Made by a program: the position numbers and the translations under genes. Below, piece by piece: positions 5,748-54,180 of a DNA stretch of 57,955 bases (position 1 is the stretch's first letter; each line of letters opens with the position of its first letter). The notes below the pieces were generated by a model. The model saw only the letters and a list, made by a program, of their open reading frames with translations. It did not search any database and was not told where the DNA came from. Source of the stretch: a virus; the IMG/VR virus record IMGVR_UViG_3300027733_000003, positions 1-57,955 of that record, one strand, 5' to 3'.

Positions 5748-5999
5748 ATGTCATATGAAATTGATCAGCGCAAAGTTGTCGGAGTTGTCTTAGAAGCCAA
5801 TGGTGCTTTGGGCGACAAAGGTTTTAATCATGGTGAAATCATTCTTGGTCTCTCTGAATTGATAGGACGTGTAATTGTCGAAGCATCAGACACTTCAGTC
5901 CAAGCTGGAGAGTTGATGAAAGTTGCTATCGCACATATGGAGAAGACCATACGTGTGGGCGCTGAAGCTACAGGGAAACAACAAATCACAGCGGGTTGA
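5748..5999 (+). CDS. Hypothetical protein
   Basis: It encodes 83 residues from ATG 5748, with CTGGAG upstream. The sequence is amphipathic and mostly helical (ILGLSELIGRVIVEA, then MKVAIAHMEKTI), with no recognised motif. A longer reading from 5673 would run through the terminator and lacks a ribosome site, so I rejected it. The stop overlaps a possible TTG start of the primase-helicase gene, which implies co-translation. Confidence 0.7.
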   Translation: MSYEIDQRKVVGVVLEANGALGDKGFNHGEIILGLSELIGRVIVEASDTSVQAGELMKVAIAHMEKTIRVGAEATGKQQITAG

Positions 6000-6001
6000 G
6001 C

Positions 6002-9270: not shown

Positions 9271-9525
9271 TTAACACTTCCAAGCTCTAAGGCTTTTGTT
9301 GATACGAGAGTCAGGATCTTTGGCTGTCTTTTCAGAAGTCAGTTTCTTCTTCATACCTTCCATTCTTGCGCAGAATGAATCTTTACGTGAGCCGCCCTCA
9401 GGCTGGGGGGCTTTAAGTCCGGGTTTGCCGGGGTTTGCTTTGTTGTAGGAAGCACGACCCTTGGCGTTCAAACCGCCCTCTGGATTCTTCCCCTCTGCTC
9501 TTTGCCATGCAGGTGTTTTAGCCAT
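9271..9525 (-). CDS. DUF6321-like basic protein
   Basis: The 84-residue protein begins MAKTPAWQRAEGKNPEGGLN and continues with KGRASYNKANPG, the signature of a short basic family (DUF6321) seen in many aquatic phages. It has a lysine/arginine-rich middle and FCARMEGMKKK, consistent with nucleic-acid binding, but the function is unknown. It lies in the tail of the late operon. Confidence 0.8.
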   Translation of the reverse strand: MAKTPAWQRAEGKNPEGGLNAKGRASYNKANPGKPGLKAPQPEGGSRKDSFCARMEGMKKKLTSEKTAKDPDSRINKSLRAWKC

Positions 9526-9825: not shown

Positions 9826-12800
9826 TTAAATTTGACTTGCAAGTTGTACAAAACCTTTGTTTTGTTTGGTAGTTTCTACTCCGCCAATTACACCACGTTC
9901 CCGCTTCATTGCGGCCATTGGTGCTTTTAAAAGTTCGGACATAGGCAAACGTTTGTATCCATTTGACACACGGGATTCTTCCATACGTTGGAATTCTTCA
10001 CGTGCTTTAGCCATACCTTGGGCATCTCCTGCCCTGTACGCATTGACGTACTCACCCTTAATATCTGTCGACTTCTGGTGATAGAACTTGTCGTACTCAG
10101 CTTTTACGTTCTGAGTAAATTGACGATCAGTCACAGTATTCGTTGGCAAACCCACAGCTTGGAAGGCGGCATCCACCATGCCAAAGTCTTCTGGCTTAAG
10201 AACGAGGTCACCATTACGCATGGTGATACCCTCAGTAGCAAAACGACCAGCCTTCATCACATTGGCAACCCCATTGGGCATCGCCATCTCTAGGCCTTTG
10301 TAATAGTCGCCATGCAACAACATCCCAAACGCATCAGCAAACTTCATCCCCATACTTGCACTTGGCCCCATTGCTGCCACAATAATCTTCTCTGCACCAG
10401 AACGACTGGTCAAGTCACCTTGAGCAAATGGCAGGATAGAAGCCACACGACCCATACCCAGCTTGTCACTCACATCCACACCCAATGCAGCAGGCACACC
10501 TCTGAGCAGTAAGTCAGATACCACCTTGTTGTTTATCATGCGGCGCAGTTTGAACTCAAAGTCATCTGGCTCATCAGGGTCGCCAAGAATCTTGGACATC
10601 ATCCAAGCAATCTGACTCATGAATGGAACAGCCATTGCTCCACCAAGCACGGACATCTGAGCAACAATAAATCCAAGGGCTTTACGAGCCACCATCTTTT
10701 CTTCAGTCGATGCCCCCTTGAACGAGTTGTGCATTAGTCTTGCCAGCATGGACAACTGAATGATCTGGAAACGGCGGAACTGACCAACCACACGGCCTAT
10801 ACCGTTAGACAACGCACGTGGGGTGTTGAAGCCATCGTATGAACCATGAGTATCGGACACCACCTGAGCAGCGTATTGAGTGGCTGCTTCGGTATTGTTG
10901 TTGCCGTACTTCTCAAGGTATCCACGATACGCAGCAATGGCAGCTACAGAACGGTTGACCGATTCGATGCGGTTGTTCACGCCCTGCATCTTGTACATCA
11001 CCTTGGCAAAGACTCCCTTTTCATCAGCCGTGGCTCGTTCAGCAGAATCCATACTGATATCAATCTTGCCCATACCAACCAGCTTGTTGAGCATGTCACG
11101 CACATCAGCTGGGGCCTTGCTGAAGTCAATGTGTTCGTTGATACCCAGACCCTTAATCAACCCAGCGATCTCTTTGTACCCACGATTGACTTGGGATACA
11201 GCGTTGCCATACCCAATACGACCAGCCAAATATGGCACGGATATCACCGCAGTCTGAGTAATCTGTTGCAAGTAGAACGCAGGGCTGAACGTCAAGCTCC
11301 ACAGTGTGTTCATACGTGTGAGTGCAACTGACAACGGGCCGGGAGACTTGTACTCCATGCTGTTGGCTTGACGCTTTATCAACTCGTTGTAGATCGGCAT
11401 GGCTTCACGGCGATGATTTCTAGCCTCATTCCGCATACGTTCCATCGAATCTGTAATGGCGTCGTTGTGTTCCAGCGAAGACAGGAAGTGAGCATCAGCC
11501 CGACCACTTGTGGCCAAGTTACGCATCATGTTGTCATCAGCACCAGACACATTTTTACGCTGCATTTCTGATTTACGGGCGCTGGCTTCAGCCACGGTCA
11601 TCAAGTACAAGTCCCCAACCATCTTGTTCATGGAGTGGAAGTTCACAGATGACATGTCGCCATCACTGACTTGACGCTGTAGCAGATTACGCAGACGACC
11701 AACAGCCAGATGGATATCTCCGCCACCAGTGTAGGATTCTTCAGCTTCTTTCACACCAGCATCTTCTGGCATGATGTCGTACTTGCCTGTGGCGTGCAGC
11801 TTCTCAGCAATGTTGTCAGCTTCGGCTTGTGTTTCAGCGAACTGAACCACGTAGTGATCAGAGTTGGAAACATTGTCTTGCAGCCATTGCTTGGCTTGTT
11901 CTACATCCCAGTCACCCAGCTTGGCACGTTCTTCATAGTGCTTGAACTCGGCAGACTTGGCCACAACCACATGGTCACCATAGCGGCCAAGGTAGGCATA
12001 GGGGGACGAAACATCCACACCACGTACTTTGGCTTCACGGGCAAGTAACAGTTTCTTTTCCGCAGCCAGTTCTTTCATTTGCTCTGCGTCGCCCATAACG
12101 GCTTTTTCACGGTCAGCAAACTCACGGTCAATTGCAGCTTCCACAGCTTTCTTCTTGAGCATCAGGGCTTCATAGCCATGCTCAAACACTGCCTTGATTA
12201 CTTTCTGGGCTGACTCATCAAAGGCATCAAACCGCAGTTTCATGTCTGGGTCGACAGTAAACAAATCAGTGCCAACACGATGTTCGCCGGGGTAGTAGCC
12301 CCACTTGCCACTAACTGTGGAGTCCTTGATGAACTTGTTGACTGAGTTGGCTCCAGTGCCTTTGTACTCGCCAGACAGCTTGTCAAAGTCAGACAGAATT
12401 TTATTGATGCGCTGTTCAAACTGGATGCGTGTAGCTTGCCGTGCGTACTGTGCATTCAGATAGTCATTGGCAGACTTCATGTATTTGGAAGCCATCTTCA
12501 CCACATCTTCTGTGATGGCAGATGCGTAGATACCGTTCTTGGCTTGATGCAACAGGTTGGTTACCAGACTGCGCGTAGGAGTACGCACAAATGGCGGCAG
12601 TCGATTTATTGTTTCATCGACTGTAGCGGCAGGGTTGATACCAAACTTAACCTTTTCTTTTGATGCACTGACATTGGTTTGTAGGGTAACAATATTTTTG
12701 TCATTGAAAACTACGTAGTTAAAACTACCATCGTTTGCAACCGCATCAGCGTATTGAACACCCTTTATTCCGGCTTTATCGAGCATAGCCGCAAATTTTT

Positions 12801-15800
12801 TAGGGCCGTATGCTTTCTCTTGTTCTTTAAACCACTTAATGGATATATTTCCATTTTGGTCATACAACCCTAAACTTTCAAGCCCTTTGCGCACTACATC
12901 GCTTTGCGCATTCATGGGTTGTTTTGCCTTCAGCCACTCGTCAGATGCAACACCAAGACTGGTGCGATAAAGAACAGCTTTAGCCCCCACTGGGGAATCC
13001 CCGTCAATAGCAGCATACCCTTCAGCAGTTGGCTTAGCTTGGGCAAAATACGATCCCTGACCCCACAGCTGCCCTCCAACGCCAGTGCCTATTTTTGTAG
13101 TTGAAAATTGTCTAAACAATACGTTTGAACCATGCCATGTACCAGCAATTTCTAAACGGGCAGCACCGTAAGCCATGTTGACCACGTCTTGTGCAGTCAA
13201 AGATTCTGGTTTAAAGCCAAGTTTACGGACGGCGTTCTTAAAGCCAGCCCACAATGTACGGAACCAGCTACCAAAAGCTCCAGTCATCTTGGCAGCAGCA
13301 TTTGGATCAACACCCGCCAACATAGCTTCTTCAACAAAATATGCAATCAACTCAGACATCACGTCTTCATCAGCTACATTGGCGTTGCCAACACGTTCAA
13401 CGGCTTTACGTGCTAGCGTAGATTCTTTGGAATTGTCATTGAGGTCAGCCCACTTACTAATTTGGCCAGCCAAAGAAACAATATCTTTTTCTGCAAGCAT
13501 CCGGTCAAGTCCAAGGTGGCCACCTACTTCGTGCATAAACTTGGCACGTCCCTGACCTTCTTGGATACGGCTTGCAACTAGAATAGCTTTGCCACTTCGT
13601 GTCCAACCAAAGGCTTTATCGTTTGACCATCCAATAGCTTGGTCACGCATATCTTCAAGCTCAGCTACATCATCAACGATGATCACATTGCGGCCAAGAG
13701 TGTCAACACGCATGAATGCTTTGAGTTCAGCAATCAAGGACTTGGCAGTGTATGGTTTTGCAGGTGCGGTGCTTTTGCCAAACTGCGCTGATTCCAACCC
13801 CACAGGCATAGTTACACCCTTCATCATAGAAGAAGGGGCATACTTCAAAAGATTTGATGCTTGTTTTGTATTACCGTTTCGGTTTGCTACTGCATCTGTT
13901 AATACGTAAGAAGGAAAAGATCCTTCTGGGTCTATCGTGGCTTGAATAACTATTTGAAAGATAGACTGTCGAAGTGAAGTGCTTCTTTCATATAGACGCA
14001 ACGTGTCCATATCTTTATCAGCAACAGCTTGAAGCGCAAGTTTTTCATTTCTTGTGAGTGGGGCATATTCTGTATGTAGTAAACGTGCTTTTGTCAATTC
14101 CTGCTGCGCTTGCTGCCTTACTTCTTTGGGTTCTTTGTTCCGCAATAGGTTTTCTTGACCTTCTGGACGTCCTTTAAAAGCATCCCACAAACCTTGGCTT
14201 ACCAACTCAAAAGTTTTGGTTACTTTACCATTTACGATCAAGTCCAATGTTCTACCGTTTTCTTTTAGGTATGGTTCCTCATTGTGTGTTTCATTGTCTA
14301 TGTTCTTACCAAACTTAACATCTTCTTCCCGACCAACCACTGATACCTTAGAAGTTGTGGCTTGTCCGCCTTTTTGAGCAGGGGTGGTTGTTGTGACTGT
14401 CTCTGTCTTTGGCGTGAACGGTGTACGAGTCAACTCGTCTTTGTTGGCCTTGTTCTGGGCAGTCGCTCCAGTCAGAAACTCACCGACCAGTTCTTGTTTG
14501 TCAGGAACGATGAACAGCGCAGCGCCGTCCATCTGTTGGAGGTTGTTGGCTACCAGCGAACCGTACGTGGCTTTGTCGACGTTGATACAACCGAACGAGT
14601 AGCGGGAATCTGCTGCGCCTTCTTTCTGCAATGCAGCCAGCCGTTGCTGGGCATCTTTCTCTTTTGTCCACACAGAGTGGAACAGGGTTACGCTGTACTC
14701 GCCGTCAATCGCCTTGTCCAGAACGAACACCTTACCAAAATCATACCCACCAGCTGTATGAGCTTCACCGCCACCACGCTTAGCATCTCGCAAGCCCATA
14801 GTGAACAGGCCAGCAGGTGTGATGCGATTCTGAACTTTGTCAGTGTTGCCCTTGTAGTAATCCCCAACGGTCTTACCAATCAGGACTTTCTTTTGCAAGA
14901 ACAAAGAACCATCAGGGTTAAATATAAATACCCGTGCGTTTGGCTTGTCAGTCAGTACAAAGAACTTGTTCTCTGCTTTGAGCTTGGCAGCGATGCTTGG
15001 GTAGATCGTGCTGTAGGCTTCTTGCGCAGCCTTGGACATGTTGGCCTTAGCCACTGCTGGAACTTCTGCTTTGACTTCCCTCACTTGGGAAACAGTACGT
15101 GGAGCGATAACCACAACTTCACTGTTCTTCGTCATGAGCGATGGGTTAAAGACCATAGCCGTGGCCAACACGCCAGCGTGAATTGCCTTAATGATGTCGC
15201 GGATGGCGGCAGCAACTGCCTGAGCGCCCTTGGTAGCGTAAGCTGTTACATCTTCTTGCAGCTTGGTAAAGAACTCTGACGTTCCACGTGTTTCACCATA
15301 GTGGTTTTCCAGTCGCGCAATCTGTGCTTCTGGTAACGCAGCAATAGGTTCTTCCAGAATTGTCTGTTGCTCAGGGTTTATTTCAGCAGCCTCTGGGCTT
15401 TCCTCAATGATTTCTTCAGCGGTCAGTTCTTCTTCAGCTACTGGTTCAGTCTGTTCTTCAACTACAGGCTCAGTCTGTTCTTCAGCAACAACATCACTTA
15501 TTGTTTGTCGCTTTTCGGTGGCGATTTCGGTGGCAGGAGCCGTGACAATTTGGTTGACAACAGCTGCAAGGTTGGCTTTACCACGGTTTGCCAAGTCGTC
15601 AAAACGAATCCTTTGATCTTTGTTAAGGTCTGCGTAAGCAGGAAGTTCAGGCGCGAGAGTACGTAGTTCATTCCATTGCTCCTCTGGGGTTTTTACTTCT
15701 TCTGGGACGACTTCTGTTTTGGCTTGCTTAGTTTGTTTGGCAGGCTTTTCGGGTTTGGCGTTTCCTTCGCCCACCGTTTTGCCACTTCTGGCTGGTTTGC

Positions 15801-18800
15801 GAACATTTCCCTCATCTGCGCTTTCGACTTGAACGGCATTTGTTTTCTCCAATTTTGCTGATGCTACAGATAAAGTTTTTGTAAGTCCATTTTGGAATTT
15901 CACAGTAACAGTAGTTTCTGCGCCATCACCAGAAAAACTTTCAATAACACCAGTTCCCAGTTTGGGATTGACTACAGTGTTTCCAACCTCTAATCCTTTG
16001 CGGTCGGCCTTGCGTTTTGTACGAGTTTCGGCAACCAGCTTATCTCGCTTTGTTTGCTCAGCGACGTCAACTTCTGGTTTTGCTTCTGCTTCTACTTTTG
16101 TAGTTTCACCTGTTAAATCAACTTCTTCCTCTTCTTCATAGGCAACACTCTTTTCACCTTTGGCGGCTCTTTCTTTTTGCAACGCAGAATAAGTATTCCA
16201 AGCCTTGGCTAAGTCTGCCGCAGCTTTTGCGTCAGCTGGATTAGCATTTACTTTGGCTTGTAGTTTGTCAATACGGTTTAGTATGACTTTACCTTCAGAG
16301 TCAACAGCCCCTTGGCTTCCGCCCGCTTTTGCAATGGTGCCCATAGTGCGGTCTTCGCCGCCTTCACCACGGTTCATCTCCTCGGCCAATAATTTGCTAC
16401 GGTCGCCTTCTTGCTCACCAGCTTCAAGTTCTTCAGCCAATGTTTGAGATTTGTTGGTCTCATACTCTGAACGAGTGGCGTACAACCCAGCTAACTCACC
16501 CTCACCAATACCGTCAGGGAATTCCGCAGAACGGAAGTTGGCAGCTTCTGTCACCATCTGCAAAGCAATTGCAGGATCAGTCACAACATATTGACCAATT
16601 TTTCTGTCCATCTTGACGCCCATACGCTCAAGTTGTTTTTGAACAGCAGCTTCTGACATGCCCACCAAATCAGCAATGTCTTTTTCCTTGAACTGTTCCA
16701 ACAAAGACAACCGCAAAATTTCAGTGCGGGTCTCAGCATTAGCACCCTTTACGGAAGCCAGTATCTTTCCAAACAACTCACGAATGATCTCTATGCGGCG
16801 TTCGCTTGAGATGTGGGAGAGGTCTGAGGCGTAGTATCCGATGGTTGGGCTGTAGACTCTTGGGCCGTTTTGAACAGCTTGCTCACCCACAGCGCCTGTG
16901 GCGGTTTGTTGAGGTTGATTGGGTACTTGCCCTTCACCCAACCCACTTGTGGCTTGTTCATTTACTTGCCCCGGCTGCTGACTACCAGAAAGGTCGGTGG
17001 CGACACCGGTGCCAGTCCGTATTCCTTCTCCTGATGGCTGTCCAGTTTGCTGGCCAGTCTGTCCTTGAGGCTCACTTCCTGTAAGGAGGGATTGAACTCC
17101 GCTGGGTTGTACATCCCCAGTGTTTGCCCCGCTACCTTCTCCTGTTCCGCTTTGGATTGGTACTGTTCCCAGCCCGGAAGTTGTTTGCAATGTTTGTCCA
17201 TTTTTAGCTCCTTTGGTTTGTTGCGATGCGGTGTAGCCGCTGGTATCCTTGCCTGTCAAGGCTTGGTGGATGGCGTTAAGCTGCTCAAGCTGCGCACCCT
17301 TAGTGCTTTGAGACAACTGTTCTAAGATTTGTGCGGCTTCTTCCACAGAACCCACGTGGGCAATTTGGAATTTGGCAGCGACTTCAGCTACCTTTTCAAA
17401 AGTCTTACGGACAGAGTCCGTGGCTTTCAGTGGATTAAAATTTACGTTGACCAGCTTGCCGCCGGTCTGTTCATTGGCTACGTTTATAGCGCGGGTAATT
17501 TGGTTCTGAAAACCTTTTAACGACCCAACTAGATCAGCAGTGGCTTTGGCGGCTTCTTGAATTGCTGGGCCAAATACAGGCTTACCAAAGAAGTCCCAAC
17601 GTTGCCCCTCAGGTTTTGGCAAACCTACTCGGTCTGCCATGTAGCTTACACGTTCAGTTTCTTTTTGTTGTTGCTGTGTTGCAAAATCTGCTTGTGTTTG
17701 TTGTTGGTTTTGTTGTTGAGTAGCAGCTTGCGATTGAGCAATATCTGTAGTTCCGCCTGTTACAGCTGGAGCCGTGATAGGTGCAGCGGTTTGATCGACC
17801 AGTGAAGAACGACCAGCCAGTGGGTTAACTCTGTCAGCAGTGCCGCTCATCTGAGCAGCCATGTCAAACTCAGGAGTTGTACCTGCCTGAGTACCAACCA
17901 AAGAAGAACGGCCTGTCAGCGGATCAACCCTACCAGCAGTACCACTCATCTGAGCGGCCATGTCAAATCCGGGGGTTGTACCCACTGGGGTGATTGTTGG
18001 GTTCTGCTGGAACGCTTGTTCAACCTCATTGGTAGCTGTTTGGCCAGTCTGTGGATTGGCAGCTGTATTCGCTCCGGGAACAAAACTTTCACTACGTCTC
18101 CAACCACCTGCACCACCACCGATAAGCCCGCCAAGTGTGGCTCCACCGATAAACGATTCTTTGAACCGCTCGTTGGATTTCTCGTTGAAGAACTGTTCTG
18201 TGGGGTCGACCGCCATGCGGCCCGCTTGGTTTACAAATTCTTGTGATGTCTCTTGAGCGCCTTCTTTGACAGCCGCTGTTGTTCCAGTAGCAGCAGTTCG
18301 CGCCAATGCACCTTTGGCTCCTGATACGTTGTCAAGCAAGTTCAGTGGGTTACGGAAAAGCTGCCCACGGCCTAAAGCACCTTCAAGGCCCACCACATTC
18401 AAGGCAGCGTAGGGAACACCTAACGCAAACGCAGAAGCTGCATCAGTCGTGCCTGATTGTTCACGTTGGTTGGACAGCACATCGCCCACAGAGGATGGAT
18501 AAGACGCAGCGACTACACCAGCATCAGAACCAAGGGACAACGATTTTTGAGCAACCTCAGCTGCTTTTTTGGCTTTTGCTGCTGCAACTACATCACCTGA
18601 AGCTTGTGCTGCCCTATATGCAGTAGTGGCTTCTTCTAAAGCAAGGCGAGTACCGCCCATAGCCAATCGACCACCAATACCGCCAACCAAGGCTTCAGCA
18701 AGATATGGGGCAGACTGAATGGCTAAACCTTTTGCGTAGCTACCAAAATCCCCTACACCTTGAACATCCGCAAATGTATCAATAGCGCCCAGTTTTCTGG

Positions 18801-19110
18801 CTTTTTGCGCAGATATATCAGCACGTAGTTCATTCTCAGATCGCTGTTTAGCAAGCCAACTGCTTGTATCTTTTGCGCCAACCGCACCTGCAACTTCTTC
18901 GGCTACGCCATACAACCCAGCTTGATAGCGATCAACAGACGCAGATGCTTGTTGTCCTGTAATACCGCTATTGGAAGCACCAAACCGCAGTTTGGCAGCA
19001 ACTTCTTTTTCGTCCCAACCCAAAGTCTTTGAGACTTCTTGGACAATGTCGTAATCAGACATCTTGTCCCCACCGGGGATCAGGGCGCGGAACTGATTAA
19101 TCGTTGGCAT
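9826..19110 (-). CDS. Giant multidomain virion (polyvalent) protein with L,D-transpeptidase, metallopeptidase and ART-like domains
   Basis: This 3094-residue protein takes 16% of the genome. It is last of three large virion genes, the slot of ejected internal proteins in podoviruses. Segments in order: a Gly/Ala-rich N-terminus with hydrophobic stretches (about 120-330), a repeated 34-residue unit (about 380-440), and a Gln/Gly-rich linker. A sigma4-like helix-turn-helix (about 795-830) and a UvrD-Tudor-like segment (about 1037-1090) follow. The L,D-transpeptidase (YkuD) core is about 1370-1545, with LFHSVW and SFGCINV (catalytic C1508). A metallopeptidase-type HEVGGH lies at about 1860-1865. 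An ADP-ribosyltransferase-like domain spans about 1990-2155 (WHGSN, then GQLWGQGSYFA). The rest is helical, with hydrophobic stretches near 2600 and 2820. It probably enters the cell with DNA. No RNA polymerase motif is seen. Confidence 0.88.
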   Translation of the reverse strand: MPTINQFRALIPGGDKMSDYDIVQEVSKTLGWDEKEVAAKLRFGASNSGITGQQASASVDRYQAGLYGVAEEVAGAVGAKDTSSWLAKQRSENELRADISAQKARKLGAIDTFADVQGVGDFGSYAKGLAIQSAPYLAEALVGGIGGRLAMGGTRLALEEATTAYRAAQASGDVVAAAKAKKAAEVAQKSLSLGSDAGVVAASYPSSVGDVLSNQREQSGTTDAASAFALGVPYAALNVVGLEGALGRGQLFRNPLNLLDNVSGAKGALARTAATGTTAAVKEGAQETSQEFVNQAGRMAVDPTEQFFNEKSNERFKESFIGGATLGGLIGGGAGGWRRSESFVPGANTAANPQTGQTATNEVEQAFQQNPTITPVGTTPGFDMAAQMSGTAGRVDPLTGRSSLVGTQAGTTPEFDMAAQMSGTADRVNPLAGRSSLVDQTAAPITAPAVTGGTTDIAQSQAATQQQNQQQTQADFATQQQQKETERVSYMADRVGLPKPEGQRWDFFGKPVFGPAIQEAAKATADLVGSLKGFQNQITRAINVANEQTGGKLVNVNFNPLKATDSVRKTFEKVAEVAAKFQIAHVGSVEEAAQILEQLSQSTKGAQLEQLNAIHQALTGKDTSGYTASQQTKGAKNGQTLQTTSGLGTVPIQSGTGEGSGANTGDVQPSGVQSLLTGSEPQGQTGQQTGQPSGEGIRTGTGVATDLSGSQQPGQVNEQATSGLGEGQVPNQPQQTATGAVGEQAVQNGPRVYSPTIGYYASDLSHISSERRIEIIRELFGKILASVKGANAETRTEILRLSLLEQFKEKDIADLVGMSEAAVQKQLERMGVKMDRKIGQYVVTDPAIALQMVTEAANFRSAEFPDGIGEGELAGLYATRSEYETNKSQTLAEELEAGEQEGDRSKLLAEEMNRGEGGEDRTMGTIAKAGGSQGAVDSEGKVILNRIDKLQAKVNANPADAKAAADLAKAWNTYSALQKERAAKGEKSVAYEEEEEVDLTGETTKVEAEAKPEVDVAEQTKRDKLVAETRTKRKADRKGLEVGNTVVNPKLGTGVIESFSGDGAETTVTVKFQNGLTKTLSVASAKLEKTNAVQVESADEGNVRKPARSGKTVGEGNAKPEKPAKQTKQAKTEVVPEEVKTPEEQWNELRTLAPELPAYADLNKDQRIRFDDLANRGKANLAAVVNQIVTAPATEIATEKRQTISDVVAEEQTEPVVEEQTEPVAEEELTAEEIIEESPEAAEINPEQQTILEEPIAALPEAQIARLENHYGETRGTSEFFTKLQEDVTAYATKGAQAVAAAIRDIIKAIHAGVLATAMVFNPSLMTKNSEVVVIAPRTVSQVREVKAEVPAVAKANMSKAAQEAYSTIYPSIAAKLKAENKFFVLTDKPNARVFIFNPDGSLFLQKKVLIGKTVGDYYKGNTDKVQNRITPAGLFTMGLRDAKRGGGEAHTAGGYDFGKVFVLDKAIDGEYSVTLFHSVWTKEKDAQQRLAALQKEGAADSRYSFGCINVDKATYGSLVANNLQQMDGAALFIVPDKQELVGEFLTGATAQNKANKDELTRTPFTPKTETVTTTTPAQKGGQATTSKVSVVGREEDVKFGKNIDNETHNEEPYLKENGRTLDLIVNGKVTKTFELVSQGLWDAFKGRPEGQENLLRNKEPKEVRQQAQQELTKARLLHTEYAPLTRNEKLALQAVADKDMDTLRLYERSTSLRQSIFQIVIQATIDPEGSFPSYVLTDAVANRNGNTKQASNLLKYAPSSMMKGVTMPVGLESAQFGKSTAPAKPYTAKSLIAELKAFMRVDTLGRNVIIVDDVAELEDMRDQAIGWSNDKAFGWTRSGKAILVASRIQEGQGRAKFMHEVGGHLGLDRMLAEKDIVSLAGQISKWADLNDNSKESTLARKAVERVGNANVADEDVMSELIAYFVEEAMLAGVDPNAAAKMTGAFGSWFRTLWAGFKNAVRKLGFKPESLTAQDVVNMAYGAARLEIAGTWHGSNVLFRQFSTTKIGTGVGGQLWGQGSYFAQAKPTAEGYAAIDGDSPVGAKAVLYRTSLGVASDEWLKAKQPMNAQSDVVRKGLESLGLYDQNGNISIKWFKEQEKAYGPKKFAAMLDKAGIKGVQYADAVANDGSFNYVVFNDKNIVTLQTNVSASKEKVKFGINPAATVDETINRLPPFVRTPTRSLVTNLLHQAKNGIYASAITEDVVKMASKYMKSANDYLNAQYARQATRIQFEQRINKILSDFDKLSGEYKGTGANSVNKFIKDSTVSGKWGYYPGEHRVGTDLFTVDPDMKLRFDAFDESAQKVIKAVFEHGYEALMLKKKAVEAAIDREFADREKAVMGDAEQMKELAAEKKLLLAREAKVRGVDVSSPYAYLGRYGDHVVVAKSAEFKHYEERAKLGDWDVEQAKQWLQDNVSNSDHYVVQFAETQAEADNIAEKLHATGKYDIMPEDAGVKEAEESYTGGGDIHLAVGRLRNLLQRQVSDGDMSSVNFHSMNKMVGDLYLMTVAEASARKSEMQRKNVSGADDNMMRNLATSGRADAHFLSSLEHNDAITDSMERMRNEARNHRREAMPIYNELIKRQANSMEYKSPGPLSVALTRMNTLWSLTFSPAFYLQQITQTAVISVPYLAGRIGYGNAVSQVNRGYKEIAGLIKGLGINEHIDFSKAPADVRDMLNKLVGMGKIDISMDSAERATADEKGVFAKVMYKMQGVNNRIESVNRSVAAIAAYRGYLEKYGNNNTEAATQYAAQVVSDTHGSYDGFNTPRALSNGIGRVVGQFRRFQIIQLSMLARLMHNSFKGASTEEKMVARKALGFIVAQMSVLGGAMAVPFMSQIAWMMSKILGDPDEPDDFEFKLRRMINNKVVSDLLLRGVPAALGVDVSDKLGMGRVASILPFAQGDLTSRSGAEKIIVAAMGPSASMGMKFADAFGMLLHGDYYKGLEMAMPNGVANVMKAGRFATEGITMRNGDLVLKPEDFGMVDAAFQAVGLPTNTVTDRQFTQNVKAEYDKFYHQKSTDIKGEYVNAYRAGDAQGMAKAREEFQRMEESRVSNGYKRLPMSELLKAPMAAMKRERGVIGGVETTKQNKGFVQLASQI
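17780..17980 (-). repeat. Duplicated 34-residue unit inside the giant protein
   Basis: Two near-identical segments, with the shared core FDMAAQMSGTA followed by RV-P-L-GRSSLV, are encoded in tandem. They lie in a probably disordered region and look like a recent internal duplication. No function is suggested by the residues. Confidence 0.75.
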
Positions 19111-40822: not shown

Positions 40823-42223
40823 TCAAGACCAGACGTAGTCTATCTTCTTGACTTCCACTGCTTTCCTCTGCCACGTGTCTCCGGTCACATTACCGTCTGC
40901 ATGCAGGCACGCATATTGATGCGCATCAGCAATGTGGGAGTGGGAATTCTTCTCCGGCTTATCGTCCTTCTCGCCGTTTTGTCGGATTTTATACCTATAT
41001 CCGCCGCGAAGGGAAGTAATTAAATTTGTACAGCACGGATCAATTAGATGGGCAGGTTTCCCATCCACAACTCTAGTGAGCATCTTGTCAACTGCATTGA
41101 TACGTGCCACGACACTGTTTGACTTGGCCGAGATGACTCTAAACCCCTCGGCACGCAGGATATCAAACACTGACCGCTCGTCTGTCTGCGCGCGCTGCTG
41201 CCCCGCTGGGTCTCCGATGATCAACACATTCATACCCGGAAATCTGTTGGCCAGTAGAGGTTTCAACTTCTCTCGGCAGAACCGCAATGTGCCCATGCCG
41301 TCAGACACAAGGTCAGCAAAAGTCAACAACCGCCCCTGCATGTCGATCTGGTTTATAGTGCATGCCGGTGTAAGCCCGAAGTCCATCCCGATGATGAGCG
41401 GGTGTGTGGACAGCTTGATGTAGTTCAGTGTCTGCTTGGACACGTGGGTGTCTCGATCAAACGCTCTAAACACTGGCTGGCCAGACAGCGACTTACCAAA
41501 GTCCCCGTGCACATACACATCGACCCAGTCCTCAGACTTACCCTCACACAAGTTCTCATAGTACCCATCGGGTAGGAACTGCACCCAGTCCGCTTCTTGG
41601 CTCAGACCACTGGGCTGTATGGTGACGTGCGTGTTCTTTGGAGGTTCGGTAAGTATCTTCTCCCAAAACGTATCCATGTCCGGCGGGTTAGTTGCCCCCC
41701 AAACTTTGTGTATCTGTCTGCCGTGGTCATCACACGCACCAACCCCGTTCATCGTCCTGTCTGGGTAGCGCCCCAGTCGACCAGTCAGCGCGTTGTAAAT
41801 GTCTGGGTTAATCTCGCGGAACTCATCCATAACGCCAAATGTCAACTGCAACGAGAGTAGACGACGTACGTCATTGGCATCATCCAGTCCACGAAACAGT
41901 ACTTCACACTCGACGTCATCAAACTTCAACTGAAACTTACTGTTCGTCTTCTCCAGTATCCCCGCTTCCCCATCTGGGTACCACTTGATGAAGTCCGGTA
42001 TGGTCGTGTCCCACAGCATCTGGCGGGTGTTACGAATGACGGCCACCCTGCTACGACGTATGCCGTCCGGTGACGGTGCAATACGCTGAGCCTCATAACC
42101 AATCTTGATGAGCGCCGCCGTGGTCTTTGTCGAACCCACTGGCCCCACAATGAAATTGGCAAACTTGTCTGCGGTAAGGAATGGAACTACCGACGCTGGC
42201 GGTGTGTAGACTAGGTTAGCCAT
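40823..42223 (-). CDS. Terminase large subunit
   Basis: The 466-residue protein packages DNA. The ATPase half has Walker A GPVGSTKTT (27-35) and Walker B TFGVMDEF (D133, E134). The nuclease half has IIGMDFG (D281), LIIGDPAG (D338) and ADAHQYA (D433), the acid triad of the RNase H-fold nuclease. The type is closest to phage terminases of podovirus relatives. It overlaps the small-terminase candidate by eight bases. Confidence 0.95.
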   Translation of the reverse strand: MANLVYTPPASVVPFLTADKFANFIVGPVGSTKTTAALIKIGYEAQRIAPSPDGIRRSRVAVIRNTRQMLWDTTIPDFIKWYPDGEAGILEKTNSKFQLKFDDVECEVLFRGLDDANDVRRLLSLQLTFGVMDEFREINPDIYNALTGRLGRYPDRTMNGVGACDDHGRQIHKVWGATNPPDMDTFWEKILTEPPKNTHVTIQPSGLSQEADWVQFLPDGYYENLCEGKSEDWVDVYVHGDFGKSLSGQPVFRAFDRDTHVSKQTLNYIKLSTHPLIIGMDFGLTPACTINQIDMQGRLLTFADLVSDGMGTLRFCREKLKPLLANRFPGMNVLIIGDPAGQQRAQTDERSVFDILRAEGFRVISAKSNSVVARINAVDKMLTRVVDGKPAHLIDPCCTNLITSLRGGYRYKIRQNGEKDDKPEKNSHSHIADAHQYACLHADGNVTGDTWQRKAVEVKKIDYVWS

Positions 42224-42692
42224 CTATTGTCATCGGTTGTGTGGTCTGCGGAAGGTTAATCGTAATGCTGAACTTCGGTGCCGTGTTCACATTGCTTGTG
42301 TCATTCTTTGGCGCTTTAAGCCCAGCGACGTCTGTCAGTGCTTGAAACACCGAGAGCTTCTGGAGAATGGTGCTGTCGTTACTTACTGCCTGCTTGAACA
42401 TCATGGCCATCATCTCCTCAGCCATAAGACCGGCCTTGAGTCTGAAAGTCATCCCGTTTCGTTCAAACTCCGCACGCTGAGTCTGTACTGCACTGATGAA
42501 CGGTGGCCACTGCGCCAGTCGTTCCCACTTGTCACCTTCAAACCCAAACCGCTGGGCTATGGCCGCAGGGTCTTCCAAGCCAGCCGCACACTCCCATATC
42601 AACTGGGGCGGAATATCCAACGTGACATGCGCTTCTGACGCAGTCGGTGACAACGCAAATTCTGTGTGGTCGTCTATCAGGTCTTCATTCAT
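42216..42692 (-). CDS. Terminase small subunit candidate
   Basis: The 158-residue protein lies directly before the large terminase. It has an acidic start and a helical region with LEDPAAIAQRFGFEGDKWER, which looks like a helix-turn-helix for DNA recognition. An oligomerisation-type helix set (LMAEEMMAMMFKQAV) follows, with a beta tail. Small terminases recognise phage DNA and load the large subunit. Position and domain order carry the call. Confidence 0.72.
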   Translation of the reverse strand: MNEDLIDDHTEFALSPTASEAHVTLDIPPQLIWECAAGLEDPAAIAQRFGFEGDKWERLAQWPPFISAVQTQRAEFERNGMTFRLKAGLMAEEMMAMMFKQAVSNDSTILQKLSVFQALTDVAGLKAPKNDTSNVNTAPKFSITINLPQTTQPMTIDG

Positions 42693-43721: not shown

Positions 43722-44120
43722 ATGAATCTCGTAAACATCATCGACAATGGCACTTCTATCGTTTTGTCTTCTAAGACCGGCAAAACTGGTTCGTTTGCAC
43801 GGGCTGTGGCTTTCGCTGATCGCCAAACCCGCATGGACATGGGTCACGCCATGTACGCCAAATGGCTTGCAAATGGTCAGTATCGCCCCTTGGTGAATGA
43901 CATTCTCGATACGCTTGTGCCAAAGTCAGCCGCGCCTTTTATCGGTGGTTTAGTTCCACAGTATGGTTCCGTGTCAAAAGAGCAACTGATCGGCTTGTGC
44001 TTGGCTGTCAATAATGCAGTCGTGACCAAGGGCAAAGAACTCAAGGGTCAAAAGGGTTTCGTGTACGGCATCGTTCAGCGTATCGCCGAGCAGGGTGCGC
44101 CAGAAATTGTCGAAGCCTAA
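43722..44120 (+). CDS. First rightward gene, unknown function
   Basis: The 132-residue protein has AAGGA ten bases before the ATG. It has an N-terminal beta part (NLVNIIDNGTSIVLSSKTGK), a helical centre (FARAVAFADRQTRMDMGHAM), and a basic helical end (GFVYGIVQRIAEQG). It is cleanly isolated, with its own promoter and a terminator immediately downstream, so it is probably made at a high level just after entry. This layout is common for host-takeover proteins, but nothing in the sequence names a target. Confidence 0.75.
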   Translation: MNLVNIIDNGTSIVLSSKTGKTGSFARAVAFADRQTRMDMGHAMYAKWLANGQYRPLVNDILDTLVPKSAAPFIGGLVPQYGSVSKEQLIGLCLAVNNAVVTKGKELKGQKGFVYGIVQRIAEQGAPEIVEA

Positions 44121-44323: not shown

Positions 44324-44560
44324 ATGCGTATTCATTCTGTCCCACGCGGTTCGATGTATCCCATGCCATCGCTTGCAACAGGCGATAAAGATAAAGTATT
44401 ACCCGGCGGTCTGCCACCAGTACCTAACCGGAATATATATTCCAAGCTGACTGGTCACCACAAAACCACGCACAAACACACACAACAATGGCGTGACAAT
44501 CGTAGTCACGGAAACGTGGCGACATACGTGGGTGCATGGGCGCAAGCCAAGCTGTCTTGA
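44324..44560 (+). CDS. Small Lys/Pro/His-rich protein
   Basis: The 78-residue protein has GGAG seven bases upstream of the ATG. It is rich in Pro, Gly, His, Asn and Thr (PSLATGDKDKVLPGGLPPVP; HHKTTHKHTQQWRD) and looks disordered, without a family. The gene holds a 14-bp palindrome (GGAATATATATTCC at 44430-44443), and its stop codon overlaps the first GAATATTC box of the next region. It could help initiate replication or regulate it, but this is guesswork. Confidence 0.6.
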   Translation: MRIHSVPRGSMYPMPSLATGDKDKVLPGGLPPVPNRNIYSKLTGHHKTTHKHTQQWRDNRSHGNVATYVGAWAQAKLS

Positions 44561-44619
44561 ATATTCTCAGGGTTTGCCACAAGAATATTCACCGGAATAT
44601 TCAGTACTACAAAAAATAT

Positions 44620-44642
44620 AGTTGGCTTATCAACGACTTACG
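44620..44642. repeat. Outer inverted repeat, left arm
   Basis: It pairs with 44832-44854 (22 of 23 positions). The single mismatch would be a G-U pair in RNA. The arms are 190 bases apart. Confidence 0.9.
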
Positions 44643-44658
44643 TTAAAACTAATACTTT

Positions 44659-44675
44659 GAATATTCCAATATTCC
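44659..44675. repeat. Inner inverted repeat, left arm
   Basis: It is perfectly complementary to 44791-44807 over 17 bases and is made of the GAATATTCC and AATATTCC units. Confidence 0.9.
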
Positions 44676-44790
44676 AATATTCCATATAAATATAGGCTGC
44701 TACACGTAGCCATGTTTCCGAACAGTCACGCGCTGATGCGACCACATAATCCGCATCATTCACAAACCCGCCTGACCCTTTCCAAAACAC

Positions 44791-44807
44791 GGAATATTGG
44801 AATATTC
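44791..44807. repeat. Inner inverted repeat, right arm
   Basis: It is the perfect complement of 44659-44675, ending with GAATATTC. Confidence 0.9.
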
Positions 44808-44831
44808 ACGTTAGTGCCCACTAACTACGCT

Positions 44832-44854
44832 CGTAAGTCGTTGATAAGCTAACT
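44832..44854. repeat. Outer inverted repeat, right arm
   Basis: It is the complement of 44620-44642 with one mismatch, read inward from the origin candidate's right side. Confidence 0.9.
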
Positions 44855-44934
44855 GTTTTTTTGTTAGTACTCACTCACGTAAATATTCTCTTATCAATCC
44901 TATCGCGGAATATTCACCCGCAAAAGTGCGCCAG

Positions 44935-45870: not shown

Positions 45871-45984
45871 ATGTTTCGTGTATTTATCCCCAACCTCAAT
45901 CGCTGGATTGAAAACGTCCCTGCCACCGAAGCCCTTGTCTACAAGGAAGAAGGCTATCAAGTAGAACGCATGGAGGCAACATGA
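45871..45984 (+). CDS. 37-residue phage peptide
   Basis: It starts after GGAG and encodes FRVFIPNLNRWIENVPATEA and a Glu/Arg-rich end. Its stop overlaps the next start (ATGA). It is too short to classify, but has the spacing of a real gene in a packed operon. Confidence 0.55.
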   Translation: MFRVFIPNLNRWIENVPATEALVYKEEGYQVERMEAT

Positions 45985-48140: not shown

Positions 48141-49145
48141 ATGAAATACTCCGACATCAAAAGCTCTGTACTGAGCAACTTCTCCATTGGCAACAAGCTT
48201 GTGCCCTTCATCAAGGGTAGGCCCGGCGGCGGTAAGAGTGCACTTGCACGTGATATCGTCAACTCTCTAGGTATTAACCCTGAGCGTGTGACCGAGTTCA
48301 ACCCAAGTCTGCGTGACCCTGTGGACATCATGGGTGTGCCACGCACGGACAACGACGTAGCCAAGTGGATACCAATGCCTGAGTTCTGGCGTATTCGTGA
48401 CGACGGCACTGACCAACCATGTGCCTTGATCGTGGAGGAATTGAGCGATGCGCCTGTCCCCATGCAGAACCCAATGTGCCGAGTCATCCTTGACCGGTAC
48501 GCGGGCGAACTTGGACTTCACAAAAAGCTGGTCATTATCGCCACAGGTAACCGAACCGAGGACAAGTCAGGTGCGAACCGCATGACTACCAAGCTGAGCA
48601 ATCGTATGCAGAACTTGGACTACGACGAGAACCTTGATGACTGGGTTAACTGGGCGCTAGATAAGGGGATACGCCTTGACCTGATTCAGTTTCTACGCTT
48701 CCGGCCCAACCTGTTGTCTGACTTCCAACCCAACCGAGAACTTAACCCGACTCCCCGTACATGGGAATTCGTGAATGAGGTCAACGCTAGCTTGCCAAGT
48801 GATCTGTACTTCGGCAACATCGCTGGTCTCGTCGGTGAGGGTGCGGCGGCTGAGTACACAGGCTTCAAGCGTATCTTTGAGAACTTGCCCAACATCGACG
48901 GCATCATCATGAACCCTGCCAAGGCTGAAGTCCCCAAGGACATGGCTGTGCTGTATGCCTTAACTGGTGCGCTAGCACACCGAGTGTCAGTGGACAACAT
49001 CGACCGAGTAGCTGAGTACATCAATCGTATGCCGCAGGACTTCCAAGTCATGTGCATGCTGGATGCTCAGACACTTGCCCCCAAGATTCGCAATACCAAG
49101 GCATATGTGCAGTGGACTGTGAAGAACGCCAACGTCTTAATGTAA
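48141..49145 (+). CDS. MoxR-type AAA+ ATPase
   Basis: The 334-residue protein has Walker A GRPGGGKS (26-33) and Walker B LIVEELSD (about 97-104). The sensor-1 region is TGNRTEDKSG (about 135-144) with an arginine-rich part after it. These are MoxR/CobS features. The ATPase acts as a remodeller with a VWA partner, which is the third gene downstream. In bacteria, MoxR-VWA pairs insert metals or mature protein complexes. Here the target could be a host or phage complex. Confidence 0.9.
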   Translation: MKYSDIKSSVLSNFSIGNKLVPFIKGRPGGGKSALARDIVNSLGINPERVTEFNPSLRDPVDIMGVPRTDNDVAKWIPMPEFWRIRDDGTDQPCALIVEELSDAPVPMQNPMCRVILDRYAGELGLHKKLVIIATGNRTEDKSGANRMTTKLSNRMQNLDYDENLDDWVNWALDKGIRLDLIQFLRFRPNLLSDFQPNRELNPTPRTWEFVNEVNASLPSDLYFGNIAGLVGEGAAAEYTGFKRIFENLPNIDGIIMNPAKAEVPKDMAVLYALTGALAHRVSVDNIDRVAEYINRMPQDFQVMCMLDAQTLAPKIRNTKAYVQWTVKNANVLM

Positions 49146-49155
49146 GGAGAACTTA

Positions 49156-50052
49156 ATGAAACTGACGACACTTGCTGAGAAAGCCGTACTGGTCAAGCTG
49201 ACCACACGCCGAGCCAACCTGACCAAGCGAGACACTATCGCAGAGGAATTTGTGCAGGAGGAACTGGGCGACACGTCGCTCATCGTTAACAAGAAGTTGT
49301 TTAGGGACGCAATGAACCCTGTCAACATACTGGTTAGCAAGATGAGTGAACCATACACCTATCACAAAACGCACACACTGCCATACGTTGACAAGGGGCC
49401 AAGGCTTCTACCAACTACACAGTATCTTGATTACACAGCGAACATGAGGCGTATCAATCAAGAGGTGGACACGATGAAGGCCAACGTCATGCCCAAGTAT
49501 GACCAGTATGTACAGCTTGACATCCAATCTCGCATCGCACGGGATGCAGGCAAAGCTAAGCCGCCAAAGTACATCGCCCCAAGCTTGGAAGACTACCCAA
49601 CGTCTGAACAGTTTGAGCAAGCGATAAGCACGACACTGGTGTTCTCACCATTGCCTGATGCACGACACTTCCTGTTTGATATCAGTGAAGAAGACATGGG
49701 ACAGTTCAACGATCAGATGGACGCAGTCTCACAACGCGCAAGGTCGGAGGTCATTAAACGCATGATGGAGCCGCTGAAGCACTTGGTGGACAAGCTCAAC
49801 AAGCCTATCGGTACTGAGGGACATATCTTCCGTGACTCTGCGGTTGAGAATGTGATCGAGGGTATCGACATGGCGAAGAAGCTCAACGTCAATGATGACC
49901 CTGACATCGTGGACATGGCGAACACCATCGGTGAGGCCATATCTAAGTACTCCACTAACGTGGACGTGTTGCGTGAGTCTCCTATTGTCCGGGAGCAGGC
50001 TGCGGCGAAGCTGGACTATATTGCACGACAGATGGGAGGTTTGTATCAATGA
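49156..50052 (+). CDS. Hypothetical protein of the MoxR-VWA module
   Basis: The 298-residue protein lies between the ATPase and VWA genes. It has a helical N-terminus (TTRRANLTKRDTIAEEFVQE), a beta-like centre, and a helical C-terminal half with charged heptads (VIKRMMEPLKHLVDKLNKPI). I cannot name a family. Its place suggests an adaptor or substrate-recognition subunit of the module. Copy 4 of the CACCTATCAC word is in its coding part. Confidence 0.75.
   Translation: MKLTTLAEKAVLVKLTTRRANLTKRDTIAEEFVQEELGDTSLIVNKKLFRDAMNPVNILVSKMSEPYTYHKTHTLPYVDKGPRLLPTTQYLDYTANMRRINQEVDTMKANVMPKYDQYVQLDIQSRIARDAGKAKPPKYIAPSLEDYPTSEQFEQAISTTLVFSPLPDARHFLFDISEEDMGQFNDQMDAVSQRARSEVIKRMMEPLKHLVDKLNKPIGTEGHIFRDSAVENVIEGIDMAKKLNVNDDPDIVDMANTIGEAISKYSTNVDVLRESPIVREQAAAKLDYIARQMGGLYQ
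49356..49365 (+). repeat. CACCTATCAC word, copy 4
   Basis: It lies inside the gene between the ATPase and VWA genes, followed by AAAAC. Confidence 0.85.
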
Positions 50053-50252
50053 TCACATTCACGGAACTTGAGGTAGTACTCATCATCGGATGGGTGGTAA
50101 CAGTCTTTGCGTTCATGAACTTGAGCAAGAGGTTGACTATCAGCCGCAACAGAATGGGTGCAATGGACAGGCTTCTCCAAGAGATAGCCGACAAGAAGGT
50201 GCATATCGAGCGAGATAGCGACAACAACATCAACATAATAACACTGGAGTGA
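50049..50252 (+). CDS. Small single-span membrane protein of the module
   Basis: The 67-residue protein has one membrane span (about 7-26, LEVVLIIGWVVTVFAFMNLS). A charged helix (DRLLQEIADKKVHIERDSDN) should lie in the cytoplasm. It sits between two module genes with a four-base overlap upstream, so it may anchor the MoxR-VWA machine to the membrane. This is inference. Confidence 0.68.
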   Translation: MITFTELEVVLIIGWVVTVFAFMNLSKRLTISRNRMGAMDRLLQEIADKKVHIERDSDNNINIITLE

Positions 50253-50255
50253 CAC

Positions 50256-51404
50256 ATGGCAACTAAACTGGAGAAAGCCAAGGCGCAGATCATTCTCGAT
50301 CATGCGTTCTTTGCATCAATACTACTCAAGCGTAAGCTGGTAGAGACACGCAAGATACCAACGCTAGCGGTAGATCAGAAGTCAACGATCTACTACAACC
50401 CTGACTTCATTGAAGGGCTACCTGTGCCACAGATAGTGTGGGGCTTGTGTCATGAGGTCGGTCACGTTATCGGTCAGCATGCTAGCCGCAAGGGTACACG
50501 ACAACACAAGAAGTGGAACTATGCTGGTGACGCATGGATTAACGACATGCTTGACTCATGCAAGATCGGTCAGCGTATTCCCAACTGTGTGGACATGGCA
50601 GGGTCTAAGGACTTGACTGTCGAGACTATCTACGACAACTTGCCTGATAACGGGGGCGGCGGTGGAGGTGGAGGTGGAGGTGGAGGTGGTCAGGGCGGAG
50701 GAGGTGACTTCGATATGGGTGACATCGGTGAAGACATCATCCAAGGTGATGGCGGTAAGCCTATGACTCAGGACGAGATCAACGAACACAACGCTGAGAT
50801 CAAGGTGCAGATCGCTGAAGCTGCGCAGGCAGCCAAGACACGTGGTGCATTAAGCGGTACGCTAGCTGGTATTGTGGCTGAGATTCTGGACGTCAAGACG
50901 CCTTGGTATGAAATCCTTGAGAAGCATTGTGTCAGTCGTGTCAATCAGGGTCAGACATGGCGCAGACCGAATCGTCGCTTTGAGGATGTGTACTTGCCAA
51001 GCGTAGACAAGCTGCCACAGATGGGAGAACTTGTCGTGCAGATCGACGTATCTGGATCGATCTCTAAGCAGGAGTTAGATCACTACTCAGGTCACCTATC
51101 ACGCATTGCTGAGCAGTGCAGACCGGAGAAAGTTCATGTCTTGTACACAGACACAGACGTCGTCAAGCACGTTGAGTTTGAATGTGGTGAGGAAGTCACC
51201 CTTGAGTTCTACTCAGGCGGTGGTACAGACATGCCAGCAGGATTTACCTACTGTGATGAGCATGGCATCAACCCCGACGTGTTCGTGTGTCTTACCGATG
51301 GTTATACAGACTTCGGTGAAGCGCAGAACTACCCAATCGTGTGGTGTATCAGCAGTGACATTGAAGCCCCTCACGGCGAGAATGTTCACTTCGAAATGGT
51401 GTGA
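50256..51404 (+). CDS. VWA-like protein with metallopeptidase-type motif (DUF2201-like)
   Basis: The 382-residue protein joins two units. The N-terminal part has CHEVGHVIGQHASR (H66, E67, H70, H75), as in putative metallopeptidase domains of DUF2201. The C-terminal part has QIDVSGSIS (about 262-270), the MIDAS start of a VWA fold, with GGGTDMPAG and CLTDGYTD as later MIDAS parts. A glycine-rich linker (about 132-146) joins them. Such proteins pair with MoxR ATPases in CobS/CobT-like modules. The role here is unknown, but a phage-made remodelling machine is plausible. Confidence 0.88.
   Translation: MATKLEKAKAQIILDHAFFASILLKRKLVETRKIPTLAVDQKSTIYYNPDFIEGLPVPQIVWGLCHEVGHVIGQHASRKGTRQHKKWNYAGDAWINDMLDSCKIGQRIPNCVDMAGSKDLTVETIYDNLPDNGGGGGGGGGGGGGQGGGGDFDMGDIGEDIIQGDGGKPMTQDEINEHNAEIKVQIAEAAQAAKTRGALSGTLAGIVAEILDVKTPWYEILEKHCVSRVNQGQTWRRPNRRFEDVYLPSVDKLPQMGELVVQIDVSGSISKQELDHYSGHLSRIAEQCRPEKVHVLYTDTDVVKHVEFECGEEVTLEFYSGGGTDMPAGFTYCDEHGINPDVFVCLTDGYTDFGEAQNYPIVWCISSDIEAPHGENVHFEMV
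50655..50706 (+). repeat. GGTGGA hexamer repeat coding for poly-glycine
   Basis: GGTGGA-type hexamers repeat here and encode the glycine linker of the VWA protein. The tract can slip during copying, so linker length may vary among relatives, and its G runs could also stall polymerases. Confidence 0.8.
51093..51102 (+). repeat. CACCTATCAC word, copy 5
   Basis: It lies inside the VWA gene, followed by GCATT. Confidence 0.85.
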
Positions 51405-53679: not shown

Positions 53680-54180
53680 ATGCCAGACTTAAAGACTGAA
53701 CTTATGAAACTCGACAACCTAGTATTTGATGACGATGCACAGCCACAAGCTCAGGAAGTTATCGTGCATACAACAGACGACAAACCAACAAGCATGATGG
53801 AAGTTATTTGGAAACACATCAAGGCAAACCCTGCGGCTAACTATAGAGAAATCTGTAAAGCCCTTGGAAAGTCACAGTCCGATGTATCGACCCGTCTGAC
53901 TCAGATGTACCACAGTGGCAAGCTCACACGTAACGCCAAGGATGGGATATATCAATGGTACGTTACTGGGGACAACTACAACAAGCATGTGCGTGGGTTA
54001 AAAACAGATACTCGTAAGAGCAAGGTAGCAAAGAAAGTTAAGGCTGTAGTTAAGGCTGCGGCCCCCCGGGTAGAGACTAAGTACCCAACTAAGTACGACG
54101 TTAACGAGTTGCTTAGTACGATGTCTATCGTTGAGGCCCGTGCTCTATACGACAAGCTCAAAGCCTTGTTCGGAGGTTGA
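53680..54180 (+). CDS. Winged-helix DNA-binding protein
   Basis: The 166-residue protein has an acidic N-terminus (about 1-40), then a winged helix (about 45-95). The helix pair is IWKHIKANPAANYREICKAL and GKSQSDVSTRLTQMYHSGKL, with a wing at TRNAKDGIYQWY. A Lys-rich linker and helical end (DVNELLSTMSIVEARALYDK) follow. This is the layout of a transcription regulator. It could set the switch between early and late operons. Confidence 0.75.
   Translation: MPDLKTELMKLDNLVFDDDAQPQAQEVIVHTTDDKPTSMMEVIWKHIKANPAANYREICKALGKSQSDVSTRLTQMYHSGKLTRNAKDGIYQWYVTGDNYNKHVRGLKTDTRKSKVAKKVKAVVKAAAPRVETKYPTKYDVNELLSTMSIVEARALYDKLKALFGG

Follow-up and report, generated by a model that had tools for sequence, protein, structure and literature searches.

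A conserved intergenic box array of fixed geometry and changing sequence, a candidate replication origin in a group of tailed phages

What does a dense cluster of short palindromes do at the head of a phage's replication genes? The cluster in question lies in the virus record IMGVR_UViG_3300027733_000003, a single record of 57,955 bp which was analysed over its full length and is called the window here. The window represents a tailed phage, marked by an SU10-type portal, a major head protein, a tail fibre and internal virion proteins, and its TerL (40823-42223, minus strand) has Pseudomonas phage Rollin as closest isolate (43%). Structural genes occupy the minus strand, and the plus strand carries the early and replication genes between about 43 kb and, past the join, 8.96 kb. 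An earlier note, made from the sequence of the window, had placed the cluster at the start of an operon ending in the replication genes, and the array indeed stands first in a run of co-directional genes whose last members are DNA polymerase, exonuclease, SNF2 helicase and primase-helicase. Rfam and tRNA searches gave no match, and a literature search for the principal box, GAATATTC, returned unrelated papers only. The opening 127 bp of the window are repeated at the record end; this end-to-end direct repeat, which G001 and G021 share, resembles a k-mer overlap left by assembly and was rejected as a biological terminus.

Several other loci of these genomes are recorded here in their own right. 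One ORF on the minus strand (9826-19110) encodes 3,094 aa and is poorly conserved among relatives except for about 930 residues. An ATPase, a 298-aa protein of unknown function and a DUF2201 metallopeptidase/VWA-like protein (48141-51404) form a block in nearly all relatives, which tblastn did not find in G018. The 166-aa product of 53680-54180, which matches winged-helix families weakly (Penicillinase_R, HTH_24), has a counterpart of 42% identity in G001 and of 26-29% in phages with CAAATTC boxes, and was not found in G002, G003 and G005. In two distant relatives, G043 and G040, TerL matches as two pieces separated by 0.9 kb within long open frames (827-843 aa), possibly reflecting an insertion within TerL.

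The array spans 357 bp (44559-44915) and holds ten AATATT cores, six of which belong to GAATATTC. Six of the seven GAATATTC copies in the 57,955-bp window fall inside it, where shuffled sequences gave a mean of 0.65 per whole window, and so do 10 of the 26 copies of AATATT (shuffle mean 12.8 per whole window, about 0.08 per 357 bp). These figures confirm the earlier count of six palindromes and four more AATATT cores where fewer than one was expected. The inverted repeat previously described as perfect over 17 bp proved one base longer (44658-44675 and 44791-44808; 18 nt, 100%), and the 23-bp pair with one mismatch turned out to be the inner part of a 40-nt repeat with 88% identity (44603-44642 and 44832-44871). 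The region is free of genes, as had been stated, except for two bases shared with the stop codon of the ORF at 44324-44560. A 14-bp palindrome at 44430, suggested as a leftward extension, is kept in near-identical contigs only and was not confirmed as part of the array. The parts of the array, together with two genes discussed below, are as follows.

44559-44566, no strand: outer-left box 1, GAATATTC; its equivalent in the relative L189 is GAATTTG, inverted with respect to the next two boxes
44583-44602, no strand: outer-left boxes 2 and 3 at 12-bp pitch, GAATATTCACCGGAATATTC
44603-44642, plus strand: left arm, 40-nt imperfect inverted repeat
44611-44640, plus strand: candidate IHF site of the left arm, an A6 run (44611-44616) and TATCAACGACTTA (44628-44640)
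44600-44700, no strand: AT-rich stretch round the inner-left triple, candidate unwinding region
44659-44682, plus strand: inner-left triple, head to tail at 8-bp pitch, GAATATTC CAATATTC CAATATTC
44772-44779, plus strand: single-copy motif CTGACCCT, about 15-20 bp ahead of the right inner pair, conserved
44791-44808, minus strand: inner-right pair, repeating the inner-left boxes in inverted orientation, GGAATATTGGAATATTCA
44810-44825, no strand: 16-bp dyad GTTAGTGCCCACTAAC, with motif GTNAGTNNNNACTNAC
44832-44871, minus strand: right arm of the 40-nt inverted repeat, with the second candidate IHF site
44834-44846, minus strand: candidate IHF site of the right arm, with a T7 run at 44856-44862
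44863-44878, no strand: second 16-bp dyad, GTTAGTACTCACTCAC
44881-44888, no strand: outer-right box, AAATATTC
44908-44915, no strand: outer-right box, GAATATTC
42216-42692, minus strand: probable TerS by its position next to TerL, which it overlaps, and without a family match of its own; the proposed box reader if the array serves packaging
5996-8959, plus strand: primase-helicase of 987 aa with a DUF927 domain, proposed initiator; its C-terminal part (8306-8956) is the proposed box reader

Relatives of the array were identified by scanning IMG/VR for GAATATTCCAATATTC; they share the paired inverted arrangement, and their neighbouring genes match. The array was found in 58 phage contigs, in each of them 2-4 kb from TerL, with the layout retained down to the arm modules: outer boxes, an arm module, the inner triple at 8-bp pitch, the centre, the inverted inner pair, the second arm and further outer boxes. 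The centre, of about 125 bp, varies in sequence and is nearly constant in length. All 39 aligned arrays of the GAATATTC type follow one common layout; measured start to start between AATATT cores, the triple and the inner-right pair are 132-135 bp apart in the majority, and one subgroup has 142-143 bp, so that the size classes differ by about one helical turn. A geometry detector, defined as three units at 8-bp pitch accompanied by an inverted one at a distance of 100-175 bp, marked the array as the sole place in the window. When groups of at least two overlapping hits were considered, it likewise marked one place per related array-holding genome and produced only single weak hits elsewhere, in both respects apart from one low-complexity group in G021. 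The array is thus a real, strongly conserved cis-element whose geometry is fixed while its sequence changes. The layout is absent from Rollin, the phage isolate with the nearest TerL. Seven copies of AAAAGGTAG were observed within the first ~500 bp of the Rollin record (L107, 1-500), a region without annotated genes.

The change in sequence concerns above all the boxes themselves. TerL relatives of 71-93% identity that lack GAATATTC carry other boxes at the same place, namely GAATTTGT and variants of it, AATTTTCC, or ATTATCC (L221). Distant relatives reached via the primase-helicase (32-44% identity) also bear arrays, with ATTATCC in G035, G036 and G041, CTAGACA in G040 and CTGGACA in G043. 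Most sister-phage boxes are non-palindromic, as in a directional array with three GAATTTGT and ACAAATTCACAAATTC, and the inner-left triple is present there with these other box sequences. Such arrays reveal the direction of each part: the outer box is inverted, the outer pair stands at 12-bp pitch, the inner triple at 8-bp pitch, and the inner pair points the opposite way. The 12-bp outer pitch is retained in most GAATATTC relatives, and L189 has it as GCAAATTCATCAGCAAATTC. Since the sister layouts use directional boxes, the palindrome is a trait of one box type and incidental to the system. This undermines the earlier view of a unit built for a symmetric DNA-binding protein, and it equally weakens the deduction of a ribbon-helix-helix reader from the 8-bp palindromes.

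Turnover extends to the arms. Both 40-nt arms of the window carry, beside an A-run, TATCAACGACTTA, which fits the IHF consensus WATCAANNNNTTR at every position. Within 200 bp on either side of the inner boxes this consensus occurs in 35 of 39 GAATATTC arrays, in all four ATTATCC arrays, in 2 of 10 CAAATTC arrays, in one of three AATTTTCC arrays and in the CTAGACA array (1/1; CTGGACA, 0/1), where about 0.05 per array would be expected, the counts including related phages and hence being non-independent. Judging from these matches, host IHF would bind at both arms. Arrays without the consensus often have CATGCGGG at the equivalent arm position; CATGCGGGTT, found in the arms of L186, L189, L190, L193, G002, G018 and G021, is nearly confined to arrays in the genomes checked. 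Mean AT content in 38 arrays peaks at 68-84% between positions -60 and +40; AT richness is moderate in the window and reaches 90-100% immediately left of the inner boxes in the distant relatives G040 and G043. The motif CTGACCCT precedes the right inner pair in most arrays, across several box types, with ACCCY at offset 114-128. The dyad motif GTNAGTNNNNACTNAC occurs at three places in the window, two of them in the array, and the 16-bp dyad was observed to be conserved beside the right arm in several subgroups.

Which protein reads the boxes? The earlier note had pointed to the small proteins beside the array, and these turned out to be poor candidates. The slot of 43722-44120, directly left of the array, is filled by proteins of five or more families, distinct or highly diverged (132, 163, 145, 174 and 166 aa), which are swapped between close phages; the 132-aa type accompanies GAATATTC in the window and CAAATTC in L189. 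Given this diversity and the lack of tracking of the box type, the gene in this slot is unlikely to encode the reader. An AF2 model of the 132-aa protein of the window (pLDDT 73) found no fold match in the PDB, and neither similar DNA nor proteins of this slot were found in phage isolates. The other two neighbours often escaped detection, 44324 in most relative groups and 45032 in the group of L006, L013, L030 and L070. Right of the array, L176 and L322 have a short ORF which, judged by eye, has an Arc/CopG ribbon-helix-helix look.

We consider it reasonably probable that the array is an iteron replication origin and that its boxes are bound by the C-terminal domain of the phage primase-helicase. 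This reading is supported by the occurrence of one non-coding layout beside one operon in 58 contigs, at one place per genome, and further by the nearly constant inner spacing round a variable centre, the position ahead of the replication genes, the matches to the IHF consensus and the AT-rich tract at the inner-left boxes. Of the two functions entertained in the earlier note, origin or partition site, the origin is the best supported, on grounds other than those given there, and nothing among the proteins scanned pointed to partition. GC skew, previously proposed as a check, does turn near the array: its minimum is at 45,942 and its maximum at 9,452 in the window, and in seven genomes the minimum lies 0.6-3.1 kb from the array. 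The minimum coincides with the switch in gene orientation, however, and the maximum with the convergent junction near 9.5 kb rather than with the point opposite the array, so that skew cannot separate an origin from transcription bias and was rejected as proof of an origin.

The case for the primase-helicase as initiator comes from its domains. A profile built from eight relatives of this DUF927 protein matches SCCmec Cch (5dgk) with E=2.9e-7. When the C-terminal 217 residues were modelled with AF2 (pLDDT 83, pTM 0.61), the top PDB hit of the model in Foldseek was SaPIbov1 Rep (8tch; E=5.9e-4, probability 1.00), with a low TM score (0.37). SaPI Rep recognises an iteron origin through its C-terminal domain, the DUF927 protein Cch is related to SaPIbov1 Rep, and binding of the C-terminal domain to direct repeats has been shown for Cch2, for which three iterons were reported (PMC7581432). 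DUF927 domains are also found fused to primases, and C-terminal winged-helix domains have been suggested to recognise origins (PMC5862659).

The likeness to these systems is partial. SaPI origins share with the window short iterons that act as origin, an initiator helicase related to DUF927 Cch, and a C-terminal domain to which origin recognition has been ascribed (PMC7581432), and in this model the array would work like a SaPI-type origin. Unlike in SaPI, where the initiator gene lies just upstream of the origin, primase and helicase are fused in the window phage and their gene (6.0-9.0 kb) is not directly next to the array (44.6 kb) but about 22 kb away on the circular map; the array further differs in its large inverted-repeat design, its candidate IHF sites and its carrier, a ~58-kb phage. 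SCCmec Cch and Cch2 resemble the window protein in the matched helicase domain but belong to a staphylococcal mobile cassette, Cch2 with only three reported iterons. The PrimPol-PV1 primases are likened by architecture, a primase fused to a DUF927-type ATPase, although no origins were mapped in that study (PMC5862659).

If the C-terminal domain reads the boxes, the two might be expected to vary together. Among 13 representatives, pairs with the same box showed a slight excess of likeness in the C-terminus over the rest of the protein, which was not significant (p 0.07-0.10), and one 80-residue stretch gave p=0.04, uncorrected. Covariation is mixed. The C-terminus of G021 and G023 shifts towards G018, which has the CAAATTC box family in common with them, with site counts of 7:8 versus 104:19 and 98:18 (Fisher p=0.002, uncorrected, the region boundaries having been picked after inspection of the alignment), and outside the C-terminus both are closer to the GAATATTC group. 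The C-terminus of G035 showed no shift towards G036 and G041 despite their common box (p=0.77).

We infer protein binding, IHF binding, melting and origin activity of the array. Two initiator assemblies would be held face to face, one at the inner triple and one at the inverted pair, whose distance is fixed. Host IHF in the window phage, and perhaps a CATGCGGGTT factor in relatives, would bend the arms and so join outer and inner boxes. The AT-rich side of the triple might then open and helicases load, and the fused primase would begin synthesis both ways.

Two other functions deserve weighing against a replication origin. As a pac or cos site at which packaging starts, the array would have TerS on its boxes, IHF bending its arms and TerL cutting its centre; we regard this as rather unlikely. 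In P1 pac, short boxes form two clusters spaced by about 150 bp and IHF is involved, and the opposed box clusters of the window with their candidate IHF sites recall it. The constant 2-4 kb distance to TerL in relatives also speaks for packaging. P1 pac, however, consists of hexanucleotide boxes inside pacA, whereas the array is intergenic and 1.9 kb from the probable TerS, with other genes between them. Similarity of TerS is slightly higher within a box type once TerL is allowed for (p=0.058), yet the TerS of G035, a phage with ATTATCC boxes, is 47% identical to that of the window with GAATATTC and 34-35% identical to those of G036 and G041, which share its box. Distance-based covariation was significant neither for TerS nor for the C-terminus of the primase-helicase. 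Contig ends show no spike at the array and spread smoothly round TerL. Fixed genome ends at the array were rejected on this ground, which leaves headful packaging from a pac site unaffected. A transcription control region, in which a phage repressor or activator on the boxes governs early-operon promoters, would fit an array that lies among the early genes and has co-directional genes downstream. MetJ-type ribbon-helix-helix proteins use tandem operators comparable to palindromic boxes at 8-bp pitch, and the Arc/CopG-looking ORF of L176 and L322 points the same way. We nevertheless judge this function improbable: three promoters were found where 5.8 were expected, no recognisable repressor was among the proteins scanned, the boxes of sister phages are non-palindromic, and at least ten boxes with a fixed centre of ~125 bp exceed the needs of an operator.

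Partition and integration are far less plausible. Partition sites can also contain clustered iterons with IHF-like sites, which speaks for a centromere-like function. Such a function is very unlikely, given that no ParA/ParM/TubZ-like protein or partition NTPase was recognised among the proteins scanned, that the ATPase at 48141 is without Pfam or PDB-sequence match and stands with a DUF2201 VWA-like protein, and that the scanned material holds no sign of lysogeny or plasmid life. Inverted repeats with IHF-like sites might also suggest an attP or a transposon end, which we consider most improbable of all: no integrase or transposase was recognised among the proteins scanned, the array keeps its position beside the same genes across the clade, and the bacterial genome collection contained neither a TerL relative nor a copy of the paired array.

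Returning to the iteron origin, the turnover described above suggests, tentatively, that it may be re-targetable: the geometry of the scaffold would stay fixed even between distant phages, with complete sets of boxes exchanged at once and the arms alternating between an IHF site and CATGCGGGTT. Satellites, superinfection or origin-targeting nucleases possibly drive this swapping of boxes and arms. The PLE of Vibrio cholerae retains its origin function although a phage nuclease presses its iterons to diversify in sequence; unlike the array, PLE origins belong to a satellite, use RepA and have semi-palindromic iterons of ~30 bp (PMC8263062). If the origin reading is true, it would define a replication origin for a widespread group of uncultivated phages and tie it to a fused primase-helicase related to the initiators of staphylococcal islands. 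The natural box types would then offer a comparison for studying how initiator and origin change specificity jointly, and they would bear on whether box turnover shields the phage from origin-borrowing parasites.
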